Shown: one piece after another, positions 33,655-63,410 of the stretch | Layout of the letters: every line of letters starts with the position of its first letter | Numbering within the stretch: position 1 is the stretch's first letter | NCBI GenBank assembly: GCA_000310025.1 | Contig: FN649755.1 | Coordinates: 616,137 to 680,136, forward strand | Length of the DNA: 64,000 nt | Source: Ectocarpus siliculosus | Taxonomy: Eukaryota; Sar; Phaeophyceae; Ectocarpales; Ectocarpaceae | Reading direction: 5' to 3' | The notes under the pieces: generated by a model | Databases searched by the model: none | Seen by the model: the letters and a program-made list of their open reading frames with translations, nothing else | What the model was told of the DNA's origin: nothing | Program-made: the position numbers and the translations under genes

Positions 33655-49773
<16,119 letters not shown>

Positions 49774-52656: not shown

Positions 52657-54301
52657 ATCTGATGTCACGTACGGTAGACAGTAGTTCTTGTAGGCGGAAG
52701 TCTGTTTTGCTTCAGCATGAGATCACCTGACATGATTGCATGATCAGCTGACAAAGAGGGTAAACGCAACGAACTATGTTGCTGTGTTGTGTGTACAACC
52801 ACGACACACCATCTATATACCAACCACACAGACTGCCACAGGCGATTTTGAGCAGATGTACGACCAGATCTTGCCATACTATACACCGCAGTCGTCATCG
52901 GGAAGTGCTCTTCACGCAAACACAGCAGTGCAAGAATTAGATTGTATTGTGCAATGACGACACACAATAGGTATCTCGAGAGAGCGCATCCCCAGCACCG
53001 TGACTTGGTTTTGACGGCGTAGTGTAAACCCAAGTGAGTCGCGACAAAAGCATCTCGACAGCGTCACTGTGGGAGGCGTTATTAGTCCCATCAGCAACTG
53101 AAACCGTCCGAACAGTTGCTCCTCTTCTGCACCCCATGAACACCGCATACGTGAGACATCCACTGCACAAGACTGGATGACATCTGCTGTAACAGTAGTT
53201 CCAACATATGCATCTCCACCCAATTTCAATAGGGAACATGCACGCGTTTGGTCAATCACGGTCCGGTGTCATCGGTTTTTGTGTCGGGTGTCGGCTTTAA
53301 CACAGTACGCTTAACGGCAGTATCCACTAAGCTAATCAGACACTCCTCCGCCGCGTTGCTCCGTGCTGACGTCGCCTGTATGCGAGATTTCGAAACCTTA
53401 AAGCAAAAGACGCAAAGCACATTCAGACAGAACCGATTTTGGAAAACGCAGGGGCTCACTTACGTACTCGAGTCATGCTTGCCGTGTGCAACAACCGCGC
53501 GCAATTGCACACCGCCAGTCATCACGTCTAGCGGCCTTCCGCGCGCAATCACCCCATAGGTCTAGTGCTTCACCTACGCCTCTCACACCCCGGGAAAACC
53601 TGTGGCCCCCTGTTTGATCGCATCAACCATGAGAACAATACAGCTGTCCGCAGTCATCCGCCCGAATTGTGTCGACTGGTCGCGCTTCGTATCGTGCGAC
53701 GGATCAATCGGCTGACGGATTCCCTCTGTCTTGCTGATGGGCCATGACACATCGTCCAGGTTTGGGCCCCTTTCCGATCAGACCGTTTCCGGTTTGATCT
53801 TTTCTGCACGTTGGTTTGCTCCATGCGGTTACGCACGGTCGTCTCGGCTGCGTCGGCGGCAAAAATTTCCGCCACCTTGGTCAGTCGATGATCGGTTTTG
53901 ATTCGCCGTTGGAGAGGACCCTTTCCGGTTTGTTCATTTTGGCTGTCCACCCAATAGGCCATCATCTCAGTCGCGTGGGTGAAAGCCCCAGAGCGAGTAA
54001 ACACCGTGTTGGCATTTATTCCTGGACCCAGGGGCAACGTCGTACATGGTCGAAAACGGGCGTTCGTCCCCAGTCCAAGCGCCATCGGAAAACGGCTTTC
54101 GTCATATACACGCCCACGTGTCGAGAATATTCTCTTCCTACGGAATCAGTTCAACTCCATCATCGGGAGTCCCCCCTACTTTGAGGCGTATGCGTTACAA
54201 CTTCGACCGCCGTTATATATTTGCCTGAAAATTACATTGATGAGCGTGACGGGTTTATCCGCCAAAACCTTACGTTTTCCATTGCTTCTGCGGTACCGCA
54301 G

Positions 54302-56471
54302 ATGGACGTCGACATCAACGAGCTTATCCGTCTGGAGGCCGAGCTGAAGACCTCATGTGAAAGTGAAACGTCGCCTGTTAGTCTAGACGCCAAGGTGAAT
54401 ATCCTCAAGTACCTTCAAGTCCAGACGGTATTGCGGTTTCAAGGACAGTACGACGGTCTGTACTACGAGCTGAACAAGACGGGCGGCCTTGAGTGTCTTC
54501 GGGGCATCGCCGCGGTTCGGTCGACGGAGCTCTTGCAGCCCAAGGTCTTGGGCCTACAGGACTGCAGTGAGGACGAGCAACTTGAAAAACAGCTACAGTT
54601 CTATCTTGCGGATGCTGAGCTTGCAAAGCCGAATTTGGACGAGCTCGTTACGAAGGTTGCGCACGACTCGAGCAAGTACGAGGTTCAACGCGCGGAGGTC
54701 AAGTCACGGGAAAGCACGCGACGGAAGGCCAGCAGAGAGCATGATGGGGACGTCAGAAAGGTCGCTGACATGGCTAGGGTGACCCTGATCTGTGCTAACC
54801 CGGAGGCCCTGAAAGAGGCGTACTCGTCTATCATGGAGATGCCTGAGGTGAGCAGGGCATCCAGACTTGACGACAACCCGCAATAATTGTGGAAGTTGTT
54901 CCATAAACGTTCGCTTGCTGTTTGATTTGACGTTGGTACTTGAAGCAACTTTCGAAAACCGATTGTGCCTCGTTGTGCTGCTTCGTTGTAATGAAGAACA
55001 AACGGCGATGACAATAATAGCAGAAGTGACTATTTCTTCTATTAGCTTCTATGGTTCTTGCACAAAAGTAGAAATGGTTGTTAACGACAATCTACTTGGG
55101 GTAGCTGTGTATCGATTGGGTTTTGGGTCACCGGGTGGAGATTTTTGTTGCTCTACCCTGAGGTCGTTTCAATTGGCCGTGGTGAATTCCTGCCCTGGGC
55201 CGTACTCCCTCCAACTGACGAGGCAGGAGCGTTGATTTCCTCGATGCCCTCATATGACTAGCGGCACCGAACCACTCCGATTCTCTTGCTGCTCATTCTC
55301 CATACACCTTGAACCAGTAGCATCGCAACGGGCTCTATCAAACGATTCCCGAGCTCCGACGGTACCGGCGTTAGGATTGGACACATCCGCCGAACAAATG
55401 CAGATAAAATTGGTGATCGGCCCGATGCGGCACCACCGTAGTAGCTGTTCTCGCCGCAGAATGTCAACCTCAATCTTGGATTTTCCTAAGTGCTTCCCAC
55501 GAAGCATTTTTGGACCCTCTAGGTTCGATAAATGCTGAGCGAACAGACGGTGCTCTTGAAAACGGACTTGCTGCCTGCATTTCCCAGATATGCGTGTCGA
55601 TACCGATGTTTTTGCGTGAATACTGCTTCACACCCTCAGGGACATGAAAATCCAACGCTGGTGGTGTGGAGGGCACACGTCGTGTCGATCGACCGGCCCC
55701 GCGGTTGGGCGTAGGTAGACGACTTTGGACTCCTCCTTGCGTTCGAGGCTTCCTTGAACTAGGGTTGATATGGTCAGCAATTGGGGCACCTGTGCATTGT
55801 TTGGCCTCATTCATGCTCTCGCCAGCAGGACAGAAAGATGCCTGCATACAACGCACACCTTTTTTCTAAAACCCGCCAAGTATCCAGCTAATAAATATCG
55901 ATGCACACTCTTAAAACGCAATCGCCCCCCCGAGCTAATGCGCAAAATTAGATGTCCTCTATGAGTACAGTTCAACCTCTATGCTACCCAAGGAGCTGTC
56001 CCCATATACTGAAATTTCCCAAGATGAGCAAGCGATCATTGACAACAATCCACCCACAACGAACAATTCATGATTCACCCTGTTTTCTGCTACCCTTGTG
56101 AACTGGTAAAATGGCTCGTGCAGCAACACGTTCTGCGGATTAAAAACGGCTTCAACTCCGACTGGATGCCTAGCGGCTATCGGGATGTGAAGCTGAACCC
56201 CGTCGTGAACGAGCACCTATGTGAGATTCAGCTGCACCTCCGCGAGTTCTTTGCATTGAAAGGCGGCCAGCACGAGGTGTACAAGTGGGCGCGGGATCTC
56301 AACGTCACTACGGGGATGCGCAGTGAAGACCTTATCAAAAATCTTTCCCCTGAGGTATCGAAGGAGATGCTGCACCTGGCTGGGGAGAACTGGCGTGGAA
56401 CTGCGTACGTTCTACCGGACCTACAGCTCGCTGCTGGACAATACGACCTGGCCGAGAAGAGCCACCGACAG
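54302..56471 (+). other. RelA/SpoT synthetase-fold domain
   Basis: Two exons joined in phase 0 give 298 residues. Hallmarks visible: K134-S138-K142 in [10 protein letters not shown] (pattern KxxxSxxxK), DMAR at 156-159 in [24 protein letters not shown] at 198-207 and EIQL at 216-219, the position of the catalytic Glu in (p)ppGpp synthetases. GYRD replaces the bacterial GYQSIH, as in the divergent 'region found in RelA/SpoT' group. No HD hydrolase domain is present, so it resembles small alarmone synthetases in being synthetase-only. Activity and product (pppGpp or other) are not shown. Confidence 0.78.
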
Positions 56472-59400
56472 GTAGCCGTGGGAATTGCAGTTTCGTCTCA
56501 CCCTTGTGTTTACACATAGGTTTGTGTCGGAGCGCGTCTTGAATGGGCGTGCATCCACAACATGAAATTGATTCCTGTGGAGGGACTCGGTATAGGACAG
56601 TGGCATCAAAGGGTGATGTAAGACTATCCATAGAGGCAGGCGACTGGACCAGCCCACAGCTGGCTGCCAGCGGCCAGATGTGACGCTTCCCAAGCCCAAC
56701 AGCCCACACAGCTAACATATTTTACTTGAAGAACCCAGCGACCCTCAACGAACCAACAACAACTACTTTCAAACATGTATTCAGTCTTGTGTAATGTGGT
56801 GACGGTTTAATTTCCGTTCACCTTCCAGACACTTGCGGATGCTGAGCACAAATTACGGGAGTTTGAAGACGACGACAGCAAGGAATCAAGATGGGCATTG
56901 CACCGCGAAAGCGCAGCCATGTCAAGACTTGCCTGTGTTCTGGATAAACAGGCAAGGCGAAGGAGCATCGATTCGACCGCCACACGTTTCACAGTTCGCC
57001 GAAACATTGTGCTTAGCGGCGAATACCCTTGGGAATCTTGGCCTGGAGATCGCGTTGCTGTGATCAATATGTGGTTCTTGTACAGGGTCAGGGAGATATT
57101 TTTTTTGTTAGGAGCACACCGCACTCGTGGGTGGTTCCTTTCATCAAAACTGTTTCCTTGGCCCCAAAACTACTGTACCCCAACCTCTTGCGGATGACCG
57201 AAATATCAGCATGCTGCCAATATCTTGTTTGGGAGACAGCAAACTCAGTCGTAAGGACCATCGTGGAGATATTCGGTCTATGATCATTTCTCAGAATACT
57301 CGGAACTCGGCATATTTGCTGAACTGGTAGCACGCCCCGCGTCTGGATGGATAAGGTTTTCTCCGAGCGCATGAGTCGGCTAGCAATTCTGCGGTGGGGA
57401 TGCCAAACCGCTACGAGCACACGACACATCTCATATGGTTTGCGGAACAGGCTAGCAGCATGACCTACATGCCAGCACGATATCTCCAGCACCACCATTC
57501 GTTTTGCGCCAGGGGGTAAGCCTCTCTCAGGCCTGACTATCTCGGGCCGTCTCTCTCTCCCTCTCATCTACCATGTTTACGCATCGTCTGCTTCCTGTCC
57601 CTCGCTTCATACTGGCTGAGGGAGGCACATGAAGCAATATTATCGTATTGTCTCTTCCCCACAACTGCTGCCGTCGCATGTAAAAGGAGTTAGGTTTGAG
57701 GCGGGTACATGCGTACGCTATTGCTGGTGCCTATGTACCACTCCTGTGGTGTACGGTGCTGCTCGCTCTTCATGTCGTGAAAATGTACCGCACCATACCT
57801 CTCCTTTCACACACCCCTAAATTAGGCCACGAGGCGATTTGCGTCACCAAAGCATTTTTCCTTTTTCTTTCCCGTGACATTCCAGGGCAAGTATAAGGAG
57901 GCGGAGACTCTGTTCAGGCGCTTGCTGGCTATCAATGAGAAAGTGTACGGTGCTGACCACCCGGAAATCGCTACAGACCTCAACAACTGGGCGGAGTTCT
58001 TGAGGAGTCAGGTGGGAGGAATCGAAAATTCATATTTCGTGCAATTTTAGTGGGTCCTACTCGTTGGTGAAGCGATGGTTCATGGCCAACGAATGGTCAC
58101 AAGCTACGTGTAGGAGAGGAGGCCTTGCGTTTGAGAATCCAGATGCGAGATATTGTAGGGTCCAACAATGATTGATGAAGAAATTTCGCAAGTCTCAGGC
58201 GATTATGAACATGGTAGGTGCGACGATGACGACGCACTTTATGAACGGTCAAGAGTCATACGAAAAAGGCGCTTGGTCAGGAGGACCGCGACGTGACCCA
58301 ATCGCTCAACAATCAGGTGGTGTTGTTCAGCGTGTGCTCGTCTGTAGTGAACTTGTCTCGCCTTGACCACGCCGCCATGACGCGTATCTTTCCTCTTCCA
58401 GGGCGAGTGTCCCGAGGCTGATCCTCTGTTCCTTCGAGTTATTGAGCTTGGAGAGAAAACCGTTGGGACCTGACCACCCAGCTCGTGCAGCACGGCTTAA
58501 CTACCGGGCGGGATTGTTGGCCATGTTTCCCACATGCAGCGTCACCAAACGAATTTGTCTCTTGCATTTCCTGTCACAGGGCAAGTATCAGGAGGCTGAG
58601 CCTCTGTACGTTCGGTCGCTGGCTATCGATGAGAAAGTTTACGGTCCTGACCACCCGGAAGTCGCTACCGACCTCAACAACTTGGCGGGGATCTTGGACA
58701 GCCAGGTGAGAGCCATGTACAATTTTTACTTCCCAGCAACTTTGGTAGGGCTACACTTCTTGGTGAATCGCTATTTCATGGCGAAGCTACTTTTTGAGGG
58801 TCACAGGCTGCGTGCATGTCTTGGAGAGAAGACCCTGCGACCGCAGAACCCAAATATGAACGGAATATAGTTAGTGAAGAAGTTTCGCTTTTGGTTTTGT
58901 ATCACTCCCTGACACCAACTCCCTGGTGGCCGTTGAAAGGGTGGTGCAACGAGGCCGAAGTGCTTCTTACTAAATATGAGAGAAAGCGCTCGGGCAGGAG
59001 CACCCATATGTGGCCCAGTCGCTCAACCTCCGGGCGCGGTTTGTTGAGCGTGTGGTCGTCCGCATTGAGTTTGTATTTCTCACTTTGACCACTCTGGCAT
59101 TCCCTTCCCCTTCCAGGGCAAGTATACAGAGGCAGATCCTTTGTACTTTGGAGCTGTGGAGAGGACCCGTTGGGCCCTGACCACCCAGCTCGCGCCACAC
59201 GTCTCAACTAGTTACCTGGCCCGGCGGATGTGTTAGCTATGAAGCCGTCGCATTTACAGCGTTACCGAATGAATCTCGCTCTTGCCTTCCTGTCACATTC
59301 AGGGCAAGTATGAGGAGGCCGAGCCTCTGCAAGTTCGGTCGATGGCCATCCGTGAGAAGATTTTAGGTCCTGACCACCCGACGGTCGCCGTTAGCCTCAA

Positions 59401-62400
59401 CAACTTGGCGGAGTTGTTGAGGAGTCAGGTGAACGCCATCGGCATTTTCGAATTTGCCATAAATTTCCTTGTAGGGTCAACACTTATTTGGGAATCGTAA
59501 GTTCATGGCGAAGCTGCTCTGTGAGCAGTCAAGGGATGCGTATAGCGGAGCAGAGTACGTCCTGCGTCCGAATAACCCAGCTGTGATAATTTCTAGGGTT
59601 CACATGGGTCAGTGAAGTGAGTACGTTTCGTTAATGGTGAACCCGTTGCACCCACTCCCTGAGTATAAATTCCAAGGTAGGTACGATGAGGCCGAGTGTT
59701 TTTATCGGTCAACAGTCAAGATGAGAGAAGGCGCTACAATAGATCAGGAGCACCCCGATGTGGCCCAGTCGCTCAACAATCGGGCGGGGTTGATGGGCGT
59801 GTATTCGTCCGCTATGAGCGTTTGTGGCCTAAACGACACTACCAAGACGCTATTCTTTTCCCTTCTAGAGGTATTATGCCGGGGTGGTTCCTCTATACCG
59901 TCGAGCTATTGAGGTTGCAGAACGGATAGTGGCGTATTGACGACCCACCGTTTGACGCTCGGCTCGCCAACCAGGCGGGGGTGTTGGCTATGGTTTTCGT
60001 TGCATTTATACCGTTACCGAATTAATCTCGCTCTTGGTTGCCTGTCACATTCAGGGCAGATATGAGGAGGCCGAGTCTCTGCATGTTCGGTCGATGGCCA
60101 TCCGTGAGAAGGCGTACGGTCCTGACCACCCGACGGTCGCCGTTAGCCTCAACAACTTGGCGGAGTTGTTGCGGAGTCAGGTGAACGCCATCGGCATTTT
60201 CGAATTTGCCATAAATTTCCTTGTAGGGTCAACGCTTATTTGGGAATCGTAAGTTCATGAACAAGCCACTCTAGGAGCAGCCAAGGGATGCGTCTAGGAG
60301 AGAAGACCCAGCGTCCGTATTATCCAGCTGTGAGATATTCTAGGGTCCACATTCGGTCAGTGAAGAACGTTTCGTGAACGGTGGGCCACTCCGTTGAACC
60401 CACTCCCCTTGTATTGGTACCAAGGAAGGTACGACGAGGCCGAGTGTTTTTAACGACCACAGTCAATGAGAGAACGCGCTACAAAATATCTGTAGCACAC
60501 CGATGCGGCCCAGTCGCTCAACAGCCGGGGGGGATTGACGGGCGTGTATTCGTCCGCAAAGAGCGTTTGTGGCCTTAACGACACTGCCAAGACGCTATTC
60601 TTTCCCCTTCCAGAGGTGCTATGCCGAGGTGGTTCCTCTTTACCGTTGAGCTATTGAGATTGCAGACACTATCGTGGCGCCCTGGCGACCCCGATCGTGA
60701 AGCTAGACTGGATTGCGTGTTGACTATGGTTCTCGTGGCATTTACAGCGTTCCCGGATGAATCTCGCTTTCGCCTTCCTGTCACAGGGCAAGTATGAGGA
60801 CGCCGAGCCTCTGTACGTTCGGTCGCTTGCTATCCATGAGAAGGTTTTAGGTCCTGACCACCGGTACGTCGCTGTTAGCCTCAACAACTTGGCGCAGTTG
60901 TTGAGAGATCAGGTGAGAGCCATGAGAACTTTCTAACTTTCCAGCATTCCGTACCATCAGAACTTGTTGGGGAAGCGTTGGTTCTACGCGAAACTGGTCA
61001 ATGAGTAGTTACAGGCTACGCCTCGGAGAGAAGACCCAGCGTCCGGAGTACCGAGCTGTGAGATATTCTAGGGCCCACATGTGGTCGTAAAAGACTTGTC
61101 CATTTCTGGTAAACCCTCGGTTACATCAACTCTCCGATGATCATTAACACGGTAAGCATGACCAGGTCGAGCATCACAGTCAGTAGGAAAGGTGCTCGGG
61201 CAGTGGCATGTCCACGTGGCCCTGTCGCTCAGCAACTGGGCGGGGTTGTTAACGCGTGTGTGTCTGTAATATCATTATTCACCTTGACAACACTGCGTTC
61301 ACGGTTTGTTGTTTCCCTGACTGGGGAAGCACTTCAGAAACGATCCTCGGTGCCTTCGAGCTATACGTTGGGCCTTGACCACCCAGCTCGTGCCGCACAG
61401 CTCAACCCGGCGAGGTCGTTGTCTACAAGTGTGGTTTCCTCGCACTCACAATGCCATCAAGAATCTTTGCTACTTCCTTTCCGATCACATTCCAGGGCAA
61501 GTATGAGGAGGCGGAGCCTCTGTGCGTCCGGTCGCTGGCTATCACTGAGAAAGTGTACGGTCCCGATCACACGGAAGTCGCCACGGGCCTCAACAACTGG
61601 GCAGAGTTCTTGAGAGATCAGGTGAGAGTCACAACGGTTCTTGTATTTCCCAGCAACTTTGGTAGGACCACGCTTGTTGGTGAATCGTTAGGCGACAGGC
61701 GAAGCTAGTTTGTGAGCAGTCACAGGATACGCATTGGAGAGAAGGCCCTACTTCCGCAGAACCCAGGTGTGAGTATTTCTAGGGTCCTCAAATGGCCGGT
61801 ACGGATCGTTGATGGTGGACCACTCCCTTGCACCCTATCTCTGGTGAATTGACAGGGTAAGTACGGCGAGGCTGGGCCGCTGTACCAGAGAGCACAGGAG
61901 ACAATGGAGAAATCGTTGGGGAAGGACCATCCAAACGTTGCCACAATTTTGAATAACCTGGGCTTGGTGTTGGAGAATCAGGTGAGAGGCCATGAAACGT
62001 TCATGGGAACTCGTAGAGCTCATGTTCATTTTCAATTGGTAGAACTCCCTTCTTGGGAACAACAATGTCGTGCTAGGCAGGTCAAATCCGAAGCGATGTA
62101 CAGTCTCTGACTACGAGCTACTGTGGGGCAGAATACGCTTGGCCCCGACCACCCATATTTGGCAGCACAGCTCAGCAACAGGGCGCCGTTGTTGCTTGCG
62201 GGTTTTGCGCGCACATTAGTCTAAGCATCGCCAAACGGATTCCGTTCTTTCCTTTCCTGTCATATTCCAGGGCAAGTATGAGGAAGCCGAGCCGTTGCAT
62301 GAGCGGTCACAGGCCATACGAGAGAAGATGCTGGGTCCAGAGCACCCTGATGTAGCCGTATCGCTCAGCAGCCGGGCGTCGTTGTTGCTCCGGCAGGTAA

Positions 62401-63410
62401 GAGCCAAACAATGCGTCTAGACGCTTCTATAAGAAATCATTCCGCGGTGGTCGAGGTTTCATTTTGACAGAATTCCAACTCTCGGCCGCGCTGTTCACCA
62501 CAGAGACCAAGCCACTACATGCGCGCTCAGAAACCATAACAAAGGGACGGTCTGTGTCTGTAGCACCGGAATGTCGCCCAGGCGCTCAACAACCGGGCGG
62601 GTGGGTTTGAGATGACGTTCTCCGCAGTTATAAACCCCCCATTGGCCTGACGCATCCAACTCTAACACGCTATGAACGACTGCACGTTTGGCTGATCCAC
62701 TCTATGCGCGTTGATAGTTGAACTTCGAAAGGGCCTTGGATTCCGAACCCCAGAATGTGGCAAAAGCCCTGAAACAACCGGGCGGGGTTGTTCACCGAGA
62801 GTTTTTCGATTTTTTTCGGGATTTCTCATGCAGTTCATACTCAGCGGTGAATCATTTAGTTCCGGGTAGATCACTCACAGTAACCCAATGCGAGGTACAC
62901 TGATGCCGGTCCATTCTACGAGCGATCATAAGCTGTTGGAAATGAGGTGCTGGGCTAGTGGCTGTATTTCCCGCTTGTGCTGAACTGGATATTCTGCGTC
63001 AATGCACGAACGACTGGATACCAAGGTGTGTACACCAAAAGTTGTGCCATTAGATGTGCGGGGCCTTGCGATAGACGAAAGGGGTCTTAGCTCTGAGATT
63101 GGCCGCAACCGACGAGGTATGTGTACGGATTGATCGACATTTTCACCGCCCAAGTCTGCGCATCACATGTGTTTCACCCACTGGATTCTGTCGCTCATTC
63201 CTGCATGTCAAACGTCGACAGGAGAAATACACGGAGGCAATCCCACTATTGGAGAGGGCCCTGTCAATCCGTACGAAGAGGCTTGGGAAAAATCACCCAC
63301 GCACAGTTGGGACTCGGAACAACCTCGAGTTTGGTCTAAGAAAGGTTCGTCCACCTCTGGACAATCTTGTAGGCAAGCCTCGTGCACAAAGCATTGACGA
63401 GAAGGACTGA
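54302..63410 (+). CDS. RelA/SpoT-like nucleotidyltransferase fused to TPR array
   Basis: Exons: 54302-54847, 56124-56471, 56829-56951, then TPR exons 57886-58011, 58580-58705, 59303-59428, 60055-60180, 60787-60912, 61496-61621, 61856-61981, 62271-62396, and terminal exon 63222-63410 (stop TGA). All joins are phase 0. Residues 1-298 form the synthetase-fold domain and the rest is TPR. ATG 54302 follows directly after an AG (ccgcag), so it could be the start or an internal Met with a missing 5' exon. Exon 56829-56951 ends CAG|gcaagg, a probable GC donor. TPRs usually bind protein partners, so the expected design is a nucleotide-second-messenger-type enzyme or pseudo-enzyme tethered to a variable binding array. 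Such RelA/SpoT-region proteins with TPRs occur in stramenopiles (family knowledge, recalled rather than checked). Confidence 0.8.
58402..58530 (+). pseudogene. Decayed TPR 'c' exon (frameshift)
   Basis: The acceptor cttccag is intact and the frame opens [20 protein letters not shown], then an extra base in gttgggacctgac shifts into a stop. Read in the other frame, [19 protein letters not shown] follows. There is no CAG|GT donor at the end. Confidence 0.6.
59674..59800 (+). pseudogene. TPR 'b' exon, open frame but no donor
   Basis: It encodes [18 protein letters not shown] and [16 protein letters not shown] without a stop, but the 3' end runs into GVYSS with no GT donor where the 'a' exons have CAG|gtgaga. 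It is therefore probably not spliced in. Its partner at about 60423 has lost frame. Confidence 0.5.

Follow-up and report, generated by a model that had tools for sequence, protein, structure and literature searches.

The 64,000-nucleotide stretch of Ectocarpus siliculosus DNA analysed here (hereafter the window; contig FN649755.1, or C30, positions 616137-680136) carries a predicted gene in which a divergent RelA/SpoT-type synthetase (SYNTH) domain is followed by an array of tetratricopeptide repeat (TPR) exons. The genome surveyed for related loci comprised 189 Mb in 492 contigs. The SYNTH domain is divided between two exons on the forward strand, as are all features described below. The first exon, E1 (54302-54847, 182 codons, donor GTGAGC), provides the start codon, the N-terminal part and the first half of the domain, with K134-S138-K142 (KxxxSxxxK), D156-M-A-R159 (DMAR) and C164, numbered according to the 14-row family alignment A1. 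The second, E2 (56124-56471, 116 codons, acceptor GTGCAG, donor GTAGCC, phase 0), provides the other half, with R187, N190-G191-F192, G200-Y201-R202-D203 (56175-56186), E216-I-Q218-L219, Q231-H232 and Y235. Joined in phase 0, the two exons encode 298 amino acids in which KxxxSxxxK, DMAR, GYRD and EIQL are all present. A first-pass annotation of the sequence had reported these four motifs in this order, followed by phase-0 TPR exons, and each of these elements was located.

Behind E2 stands E3 (56829-56951), a divergent TPR-like exon of 123 bp (41 codons) with the donor GCAAGG, for which counterparts were found in three paralogs (C30a, 72.5% identity; C20, 60%; C30b, 47.5%). It is followed by eight exons of 126 bp (42 codons), all bounded by AG and GT, at 57886-58011, 58580-58705, 59303-59428, 60055-60180 (92% identical at the nucleotide level to the preceding one), 60787-60912, 61496-61621, 61856-61981 and 62271-62396. 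The last exon found (63222-63410) encodes a TPR-like unit of 41 codons and 21 further codons up to the stop, and has a possible alternative donor, GTTCGT, at 63345. The joined chain of 12 exons amounts to 738 codons including the stop, none of the internal codons being a stop. When the TPR scan was applied to five shuffled windows, in which two-base blocks had been permuted, no match was obtained on either strand in any of the five. Together with the recurrence of E1 and E2 at 15 loci, this speaks against a chance arrangement. The predicted splice chain from E1, E2 and E3 through the TPR exons to the last exon would yield one protein. An AG lies immediately 5' of the E1 start codon in 12 of 16 E1 copies, that of the window included (upstream region 54242-54301), which makes a spliced leader exon further upstream likely, so that E1 need not be the first. 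Similarly, GTTCGT occurs at the same point of the last exon in all four copies inspected (the window, two other loci of the family and one NB-ARC locus), which leaves the true 3' end of the gene unsure.

The array is itself built of repeats. Seven direct repeats of 160 nucleotides, spaced 694 to 775 bp apart, cover 57883-62427, and one intact TPR exon lies in each; six of these seven exons are best matched by a single TPR type. Between the repeats lie decayed TPR exons (for example 58402-58519, 59117-59208, 59676-59795 and 60424-60537), relics of other types that carry stops and frame breaks, and in one case checked the acceptor AG was lost. Because many such relics lie among the intact exons, the window array is only partly alive. 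The dead exons of this region may serve as a reservoir of donors for repeat conversion, or simply reflect decay. Tandem Repeats Finder, with a longest period of 500, listed no array in the window.

The first-pass annotation had treated the locus as a single gene; it turned out to be one of at least 17 such loci in the genome, designated 'Rel loci'. Fifteen of them, the window included, have both E1 and E2. The identity of the window copy was 34 to 77% with the 15 other copies of E1, and 48 to 86% with the 14 other full copies of E2. Alignment A1 holds 14 of the 15 two-exon loci, window copy included; C458 was omitted for its frameshift, and C24 (E1 only) and C15 (a fragment of E2 only) are not part of it. 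At one paralog (L033, C10:347300-357299), the E1 and E2 matches lie in one frame that is open over 448 amino acids, and the intron may therefore be readable or retained there.

Intact 42-codon TPR exons were found behind all 11 loci at which at least 5 kb downstream was read, including the window and the E2-fragment locus; their numbers per locus were 13, 11, 11, 11, 11, 11, 8, 6, 5, 5 and 4. For the remaining six loci, only about 1.5 kb behind E2 was read (behind E1 for C24), and this interval contained one intact and one weak TPR exon at C9a, two degenerate ones at C458, one at C24, and none at C33, C29 and C4. E1 and E2 are physically chained to TPR exons. Over the 96 TPR exons of Rel loci, A6, G22, H25, A36 and Q42 are nearly fixed, and positions 17, 27, 30, 31, 37, 40 and 41 exceed 3 bits of entropy. 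The proposal of the first-pass annotation that a fast-evolving array sets partner specificity stays conjectural. The repeat exons vary in sequence and are similar to exons of other genes, but clear positive selection found no support, the ratio of nonsynonymous to synonymous substitution rates (dN/dS) exceeding 1 in only one of 22 usable pairs (28 in total) of window repeats.

Several lines of comparison bear on the nature of the domain. The Pfam family RelA_SpoT (PF04607) matched the window domain over residues 133-226 (profile positions 3-98 of 113, E 3.2e-4), and 9 of the 14 aligned members at an E limit of 10 (best E 8.6e-5). Tas1 (6ox6) headed the PDB list obtained with the family profile (E 3.3e-5; 0.0014 with the core profile, 0.011 when just the window sequence was used). 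Weak matches to tyrosyl-tRNA ligases in the PDB, with E values of 0.11 or more, were taken as chance. The C-terminal part of the NCBIfam XopAD model matched 10 of 14 members (best 2.3e-7), far under the cut-off set for the whole protein. PADLOC returned a single weak family in one member of 14. PHROG 7625 (head morphogenesis) matched six of 14 close to the C terminus of the PHROG, with a best E of 0.0023 that is suggestive only.

Searches of bacterial genomes led to polymorphic-toxin-like proteins. At a threshold of 0.01, the algae-only profile A1 matched two of 396 genomes of one bacterial phylum, the stronger match (E 8.7e-13) being a domain within a polymorphic-toxin-like actinobacterial open reading frame (ORF) of 1556 amino acids. 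Within the 693 amino acids read of this ORF, a RelA_SpoT domain that exceeds the Pfam cut-off accompanies a Gln_amidase toxin domain. Once this bacterial domain was added (profile A3), 44 of 394 genomes of the same class matched at 0.001; six genomes, the added one included, did so with E below 1e-15, all in ORFs of at least 1442 amino acids. For another bacterial phylum, A3 matched one genome of 395. Six further toxin-type fragments were scanned: RelA_SpoT was present in all six at 0.01, and above the cut-off in two, and Gln_amidase in two. With the algae-only core profile, seven toxin-type loci scored 48.7, 38.8, 38.0, 35.3, 21.5, 15.2 and 13.2 bits; short loci of small alarmone synthetases (SAS) reached 19.5 bits at most, L093 8.1, L062 7.0, and loci of RelA/SpoT homologues (RSH) about 6 or less. 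The domain with the top score (L119) lies between InPase and ddrB-ParB domains in a 1129-amino-acid fragment, perhaps a phage or mobile-element setting. No match was obtained in viral contigs searched with E2, A1 and a bacterial domain, in prokaryote contigs searched directly with A1, or in phage records searched with the core domain.

Profile-profile comparison with hhalign gave the algal domain a probability of 99.4% against bacterial toxin-type SYNTH, 92.3% against SAS and 0.1% against long RSH, the last represented by only four sequences; six controls (five shuffled, one reversed) remained at or below 1.1%, and the toxin-type domains themselves reached 96.0% against RSH. A tree was built from 14 algal, 7 toxin-type, 21 SAS and 4 RSH rows (FaRel, CapRel, Tas1 and locus L120 are outside it). 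The toxin-type and SAS rows had been gathered with a profile of nine algal rows and one bacterial row, a choice that leans to resemblance, and the motif search recovered a domain from only four of 29 RSH loci. Algal and toxin-type rows split from SAS and RSH rows with a support of 100/99. The algal rows form a clade (99/94), the toxin-type rows one of only 83/55, and neither the root nor the direction of transfer is fixed by the tree.

By its sequence, then, the domain is a divergent RelA/SpoT SYNTH, among the sampled sequences nearest to toxin-type synthetases and not to plastid-type RSH. None of the profile searches placed 54302-56471 outside the RelA/SpoT fold, and the type assigned by the first-pass annotation stands, given the sub-threshold Pfam match, the indirect link through the bacterial domain that exceeds the Pfam cut-off, and the hhalign values relative to the controls. 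Its reading of the domain as an alarmone synthetase needs amending in that this is not an ordinary synthetase, as the toxin-type grouping and the value against long RSH indicate. The plastid-type long RSH of this genome (loci C26 and C2) also belong to the RelA_SpoT superfamily; the algal family differs from them in having neither an HD domain nor a match to the long-RSH profile. The window chain contains no HD hydrolase domain beside SYNTH, and matches to HD_4, the one hydrolase family searched, occurred in the genome only at those same two loci. A plastid RSH identity was rejected on the profile scores, the hhalign value against the four RSH sequences, the tree and the absence of HD_4.

Candidate active-site residues could be placed by alignment and spacing. 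D156, R159, Y201, E216 and Q218 are invariant in the 14 aligned paralogs, as are K134, R141, K142, A158, C164, N190-G191-F192, G200-Y-R-D-V-K205, H213, C215-E-I-Q-L219, Q231-H232, Y235 and W237, among others. According to passages of PMC12691689, the mutation D121A inactivates SaEAS, and R124, K154, N169, E182 and Q184 are among its ATP-binding residues. The algal D156, R159, E216 and Q218 fit SaEAS D121, R124, E182 and Q184, with a distance from D to E of 60 residues compared to 61. Tas1 has DLARNT where the window copy has DMARVT. CapRel requires a G-loop tyrosine (described in part of PMC9712102), of which Y201 of GYRD is plausibly the counterpart. Catalytic roles transferred in this way, by alignment and spacing as opposed to structure, are putative. 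Over the 73 usable pairs of 78 for E1 (13 copies), dN/dS had a median of 0.38; over the 84 usable pairs of 91 for E2 (14 copies), the median was 0.22. It exceeded 1 in no pair of either exon. The SYNTH domain is under purifying selection. Given its grouping with polymorphic-toxin domains, candidate products are (p)ppApp, (p)ppGpp and pyrophosphorylated tRNA. The D-x-A-R signature is shared with Tas1 and SaEAS, both of which produce (p)ppApp, and by analogy this slightly favours an adenosine product.

We then compared the arrays with those of the NB-ARC loci. Twenty-seven NB-ARC matches were found in the genome, counted as 26 loci since two adjacent matches on C6 were merged. None of the 27 lies at a Rel locus, which agrees with the first-pass annotation in placing the gene outside the usual NB-ARC-TPR design. 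Rel loci nevertheless have the layout of that design, with one TPR per 126-bp phase-0 exon and a common 3' exon. Across the genome, 27 sequences match the last exon: 8 are behind 7 of the 17 Rel loci (that is, within 25 kb on the same strand), 8 behind 7 of the 26 NB-ARC loci, and 11 behind neither, compared to chance expectations over all 27 matches of 0.03 for Rel and 0.05 for NB-ARC. At Rel loci, neither the upstream nor the opposite-strand control yielded a match; at NB-ARC loci, each of them yielded 2. The 18 stronger matches (E no higher than 1e-6) comprise 4 that lie behind 4 Rel loci, 8 that lie behind 7 NB-ARC loci and 6 that lie behind no locus of either kind; of the nine weaker ones, which may be ordinary TPR exons, 4 are behind Rel loci (3 further loci) and 5 behind neither. 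A local search also detected a similar exon at the array end of Rel loci C10 and C5.

For 20 of 110 TPR exons, the closest exon was strictly one of the same gene, and a further 8 were ties; resolving ties by order raised the count to 24, compared to 8.5 under label shuffling. For 41 of the 96 Rel-locus exons, the nearest exon was strictly among only 14 exons read at two NB-ARC loci (7 more were ties), and the same count made for each of the 55 pairs of Rel loci was at most 25% of the remaining exons, with a median of 10%. This means that the NB-ARC exons are either the hub of an exon pool or merely closest to the consensus. In the window, the seventh and eighth TPR exons have an NB-ARC-locus exon as closest relative among the exons read (67 and 79% nucleotide identity, respectively). 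Taken with the last-exon data, these results indicate that SYNTH and NB-ARC heads stand on one kind of array, and that one kind of 3' exon is present in several loci of each. At one NB-ARC locus (L057, C2:8810000-8816800), two TPR exons 240 bp apart are 99% alike in DNA, a very recent duplication.

The components of this gene have counterparts elsewhere, arranged differently. The exported or toxin SYNTH domains (Tas1/Apk1, SaEAS, the XopAD C terminus, MuF-SAS and polymorphic toxins) belong to the same sequence family as the algal domain. Tas1/Apk1-type synthetase domains occur in XopAD and MuF contexts (passages of PMC12691689), and RelA/SpoT is listed as a polymorphic-toxin domain, XopAD included, in part of PMC3482391. 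The algal domain shares with them the D-x-A-R signature of Tas1, the D/R spacing of SaEAS, and the bacterial toxin-type blocks GYRD...GH-x-x-E-[LI]-x-L and H-x-[LV]-Y. Exported toxins carry SYNTH behind a secretion domain, whereas in the alga it is N-terminal, in an intron-rich eukaryotic family with TPR repeats. A similar layout is that of CapRel, a fused bacterial toxSAS immune protein which, in the passages of PMC9712102 that describe it, likewise has an N-terminal SYNTH-type domain and a C-terminal sensing region. Its sensor is an antitoxin-like domain in that description, whereas the algal counterpart, as read from sequence, would be a TPR array of shuffled exons.

Among eukaryotes, fungal NLRs fall into 12 classes by their N terminus, and RelA_SpoT makes up one of these (PMC4986451; see also PMC12258605), so that there, too, an N-terminal effector stands before a repeat sensor. 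In the same passages, the defining feature of fungal NLRs is a NACHT or NB-ARC domain in between, the examples ending in WD40 or an unknown domain; the algal family has no such central domain. NB-ARC-TPR receptors of the alga have in common with Rel loci the 126-bp phase-0 TPR exons, the last exon and similar repeats, but carry NB-ARC where Rel loci carry SYNTH. Brown-algal loci combining such exons with NB-ARC were reportedly treated by Zambounis in 2012 and Teng in 2023, both cited in PMC11378527. For an NB-free, exon-shuffled algal SYNTH-TPR family, no description was found among the open-access PubMed Central papers that the literature searches listed.

We propose that the locus encodes a soluble sensor-effector protein, in which an N-terminal toxin-type SYNTH pyrophosphokinase is silenced by or through a C-terminal TPR superhelix made of shuffled 42-residue exons; we consider the chances of this reading to be evenly balanced. 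By analogy with CapRel and NLR-type receptors, the superhelix would keep the SYNTH head inactive, and the domain would be released or clustered once the array binds a ligand that signals non-self or damage. The active domain would then use ATP to pyrophosphorylate a purine nucleotide or the end of a tRNA, and this modification would bring about growth stop or death of the infected cell. Splicing into one protein, cytosolic location, catalysis, product, autoinhibition, ligand and immune role are all predicted.

A number of observations weigh against this proposal. The RelA_SpoT score of the window domain, 21.4 bits, is under the curated cut-off of 27, and the match was absent from the listing when a 465-amino-acid chain was scanned. 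The match to Tas1 does not extend beyond the first half of the domain (profile positions 97-166), two of the seven toxin-type loci score under the best short SAS with the algae-only profile, and the resemblance to long RSH was negligible in hhalign. The active-site correspondence leaves SaEAS K154 and N169 without a mapped position in the alga. Structure prediction was uninformative: single-sequence AlphaFold models of E1 and E2 taken apart had predicted local distance difference test (pLDDT) values of 52 and 38, and the best-scored stretch of the former, residues 90-165, forms a single long helix in place of the strand expected at DMAR. Since the domain is cut in two between the exons, such models are weak evidence. 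At E3, the window copy has a GC donor and the three paralogs GT, C24 carries DMAG and a stop, and C458 its frameshift. The NB-ARC exons may be nearest to those of Rel loci simply through closeness to the TPR consensus. As HD_4 was found only at the two RSH loci, an off-switch or dedicated antidote is not evident. Finally, it is the architecture alone that suggests an immune role.

Four other explanations were considered. The protein could serve the physiology of the alga itself as a signalling enzyme, its SYNTH domain making a regulatory nucleotide in answer to developmental or stress partners that the TPR scaffold binds, with no role in defence. TPR arrays commonly bind host partners, and purifying selection on the domain would suit such a function. 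Divergent eukaryotic SAS genes exist, moreover, in diatoms, fungi and Dictyostelium (part of PMC3153485), and some green-algal RSH4 have TPRs at the C terminus (part of PMC6881373). At least 17 diverse loci, with repeat and last exons common to NB-ARC loci, are instead what a receptor repertoire would be expected to show, and the domain groups with toxin-type sequences, not with RSH or ordinary SAS. We judge this explanation unlikely, although it deserves serious weight.

It is also conceivable that the domain binds nucleotides but is catalytically dead, acting as a switch or decoy before the TPR repeats. The arginine of the DxxGxR usual in SAS rows is replaced (DMARVT), and the low Pfam score would fit. 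The invariance of D156, R159, E216, Q218, Y201 and the basic K134, R141 and K142 in all 14 rows, and the presence of an arginine at D+3 in Tas1 and SaEAS as well, make this rather improbable. That the window copy is a decaying gene which no longer makes a full protein is suggested by its many TPR relics, its uncertain 3' end, the GC donor of E3 and its relatives C24 and C458, which resemble pseudogenes. None of the 12 exons is interrupted, however, dN/dS on the window branch is about 0.5 for E1 and about 0.2 for E2 (three-way subtraction with C30a and C20), and GC-AG introns are usable, so that we regard decay as distinctly improbable. Lastly, separate side-by-side genes for E1-E2 and the TPR exons, for which the lengths of intron 1 (1.3 kb) and of the interval from E2 to the first 42-codon exon (1.4 kb) could be cited, are very improbable indeed, in view of the same-strand downstream TPR exons at 11 of 11 loci read (C15 being an E2 fragment), the phase-0 E3 directly after E2 in four loci, and the finding that, within 25 kb of a Rel locus, the last exon has no match on the 5' side or on the opposite strand.

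Elsewhere in the window, at 39029-41070, frames end in a TTSGKIQRR-like sequence, which we take to be the motif of AMP-binding enzymes. This end has no Pfam match; the region also gives a weak phosphopantetheine-attachment match (PF00550, 22.1 bits). It is perhaps a fatty-acyl or polyketide-type synthetase gene.

The sensor-effector reading can be extended to the whole family. The 14 algal rows form one clade, which would fit a single capture of the toxin domain. The multicellular alga might thus possess a CapRel-like immune repertoire, in which a polymorphic-toxin pyrophosphokinase, captured once, has come to occupy some 17 loci and uses the TPR arrays and the 3' exon of NB-ARC receptors; one exon pool would then serve two unrelated heads, one of them poisoning nucleotide or tRNA metabolism. 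We hold this wider view tentatively, somewhat short of an even chance. If true, it would mean that a multicellular lineage distant from animals, plants and fungi has an NB-free receptor family whose effector enzyme is related to bacterial toxins, and that a single pool of sensor exons supplies two kinds of signalling head. Since assays exist in principle for the output predicted, namely a nucleotide or tRNA that has been pyrophosphorylated, the purpose of TPR exon shuffling in brown algae would become directly testable.

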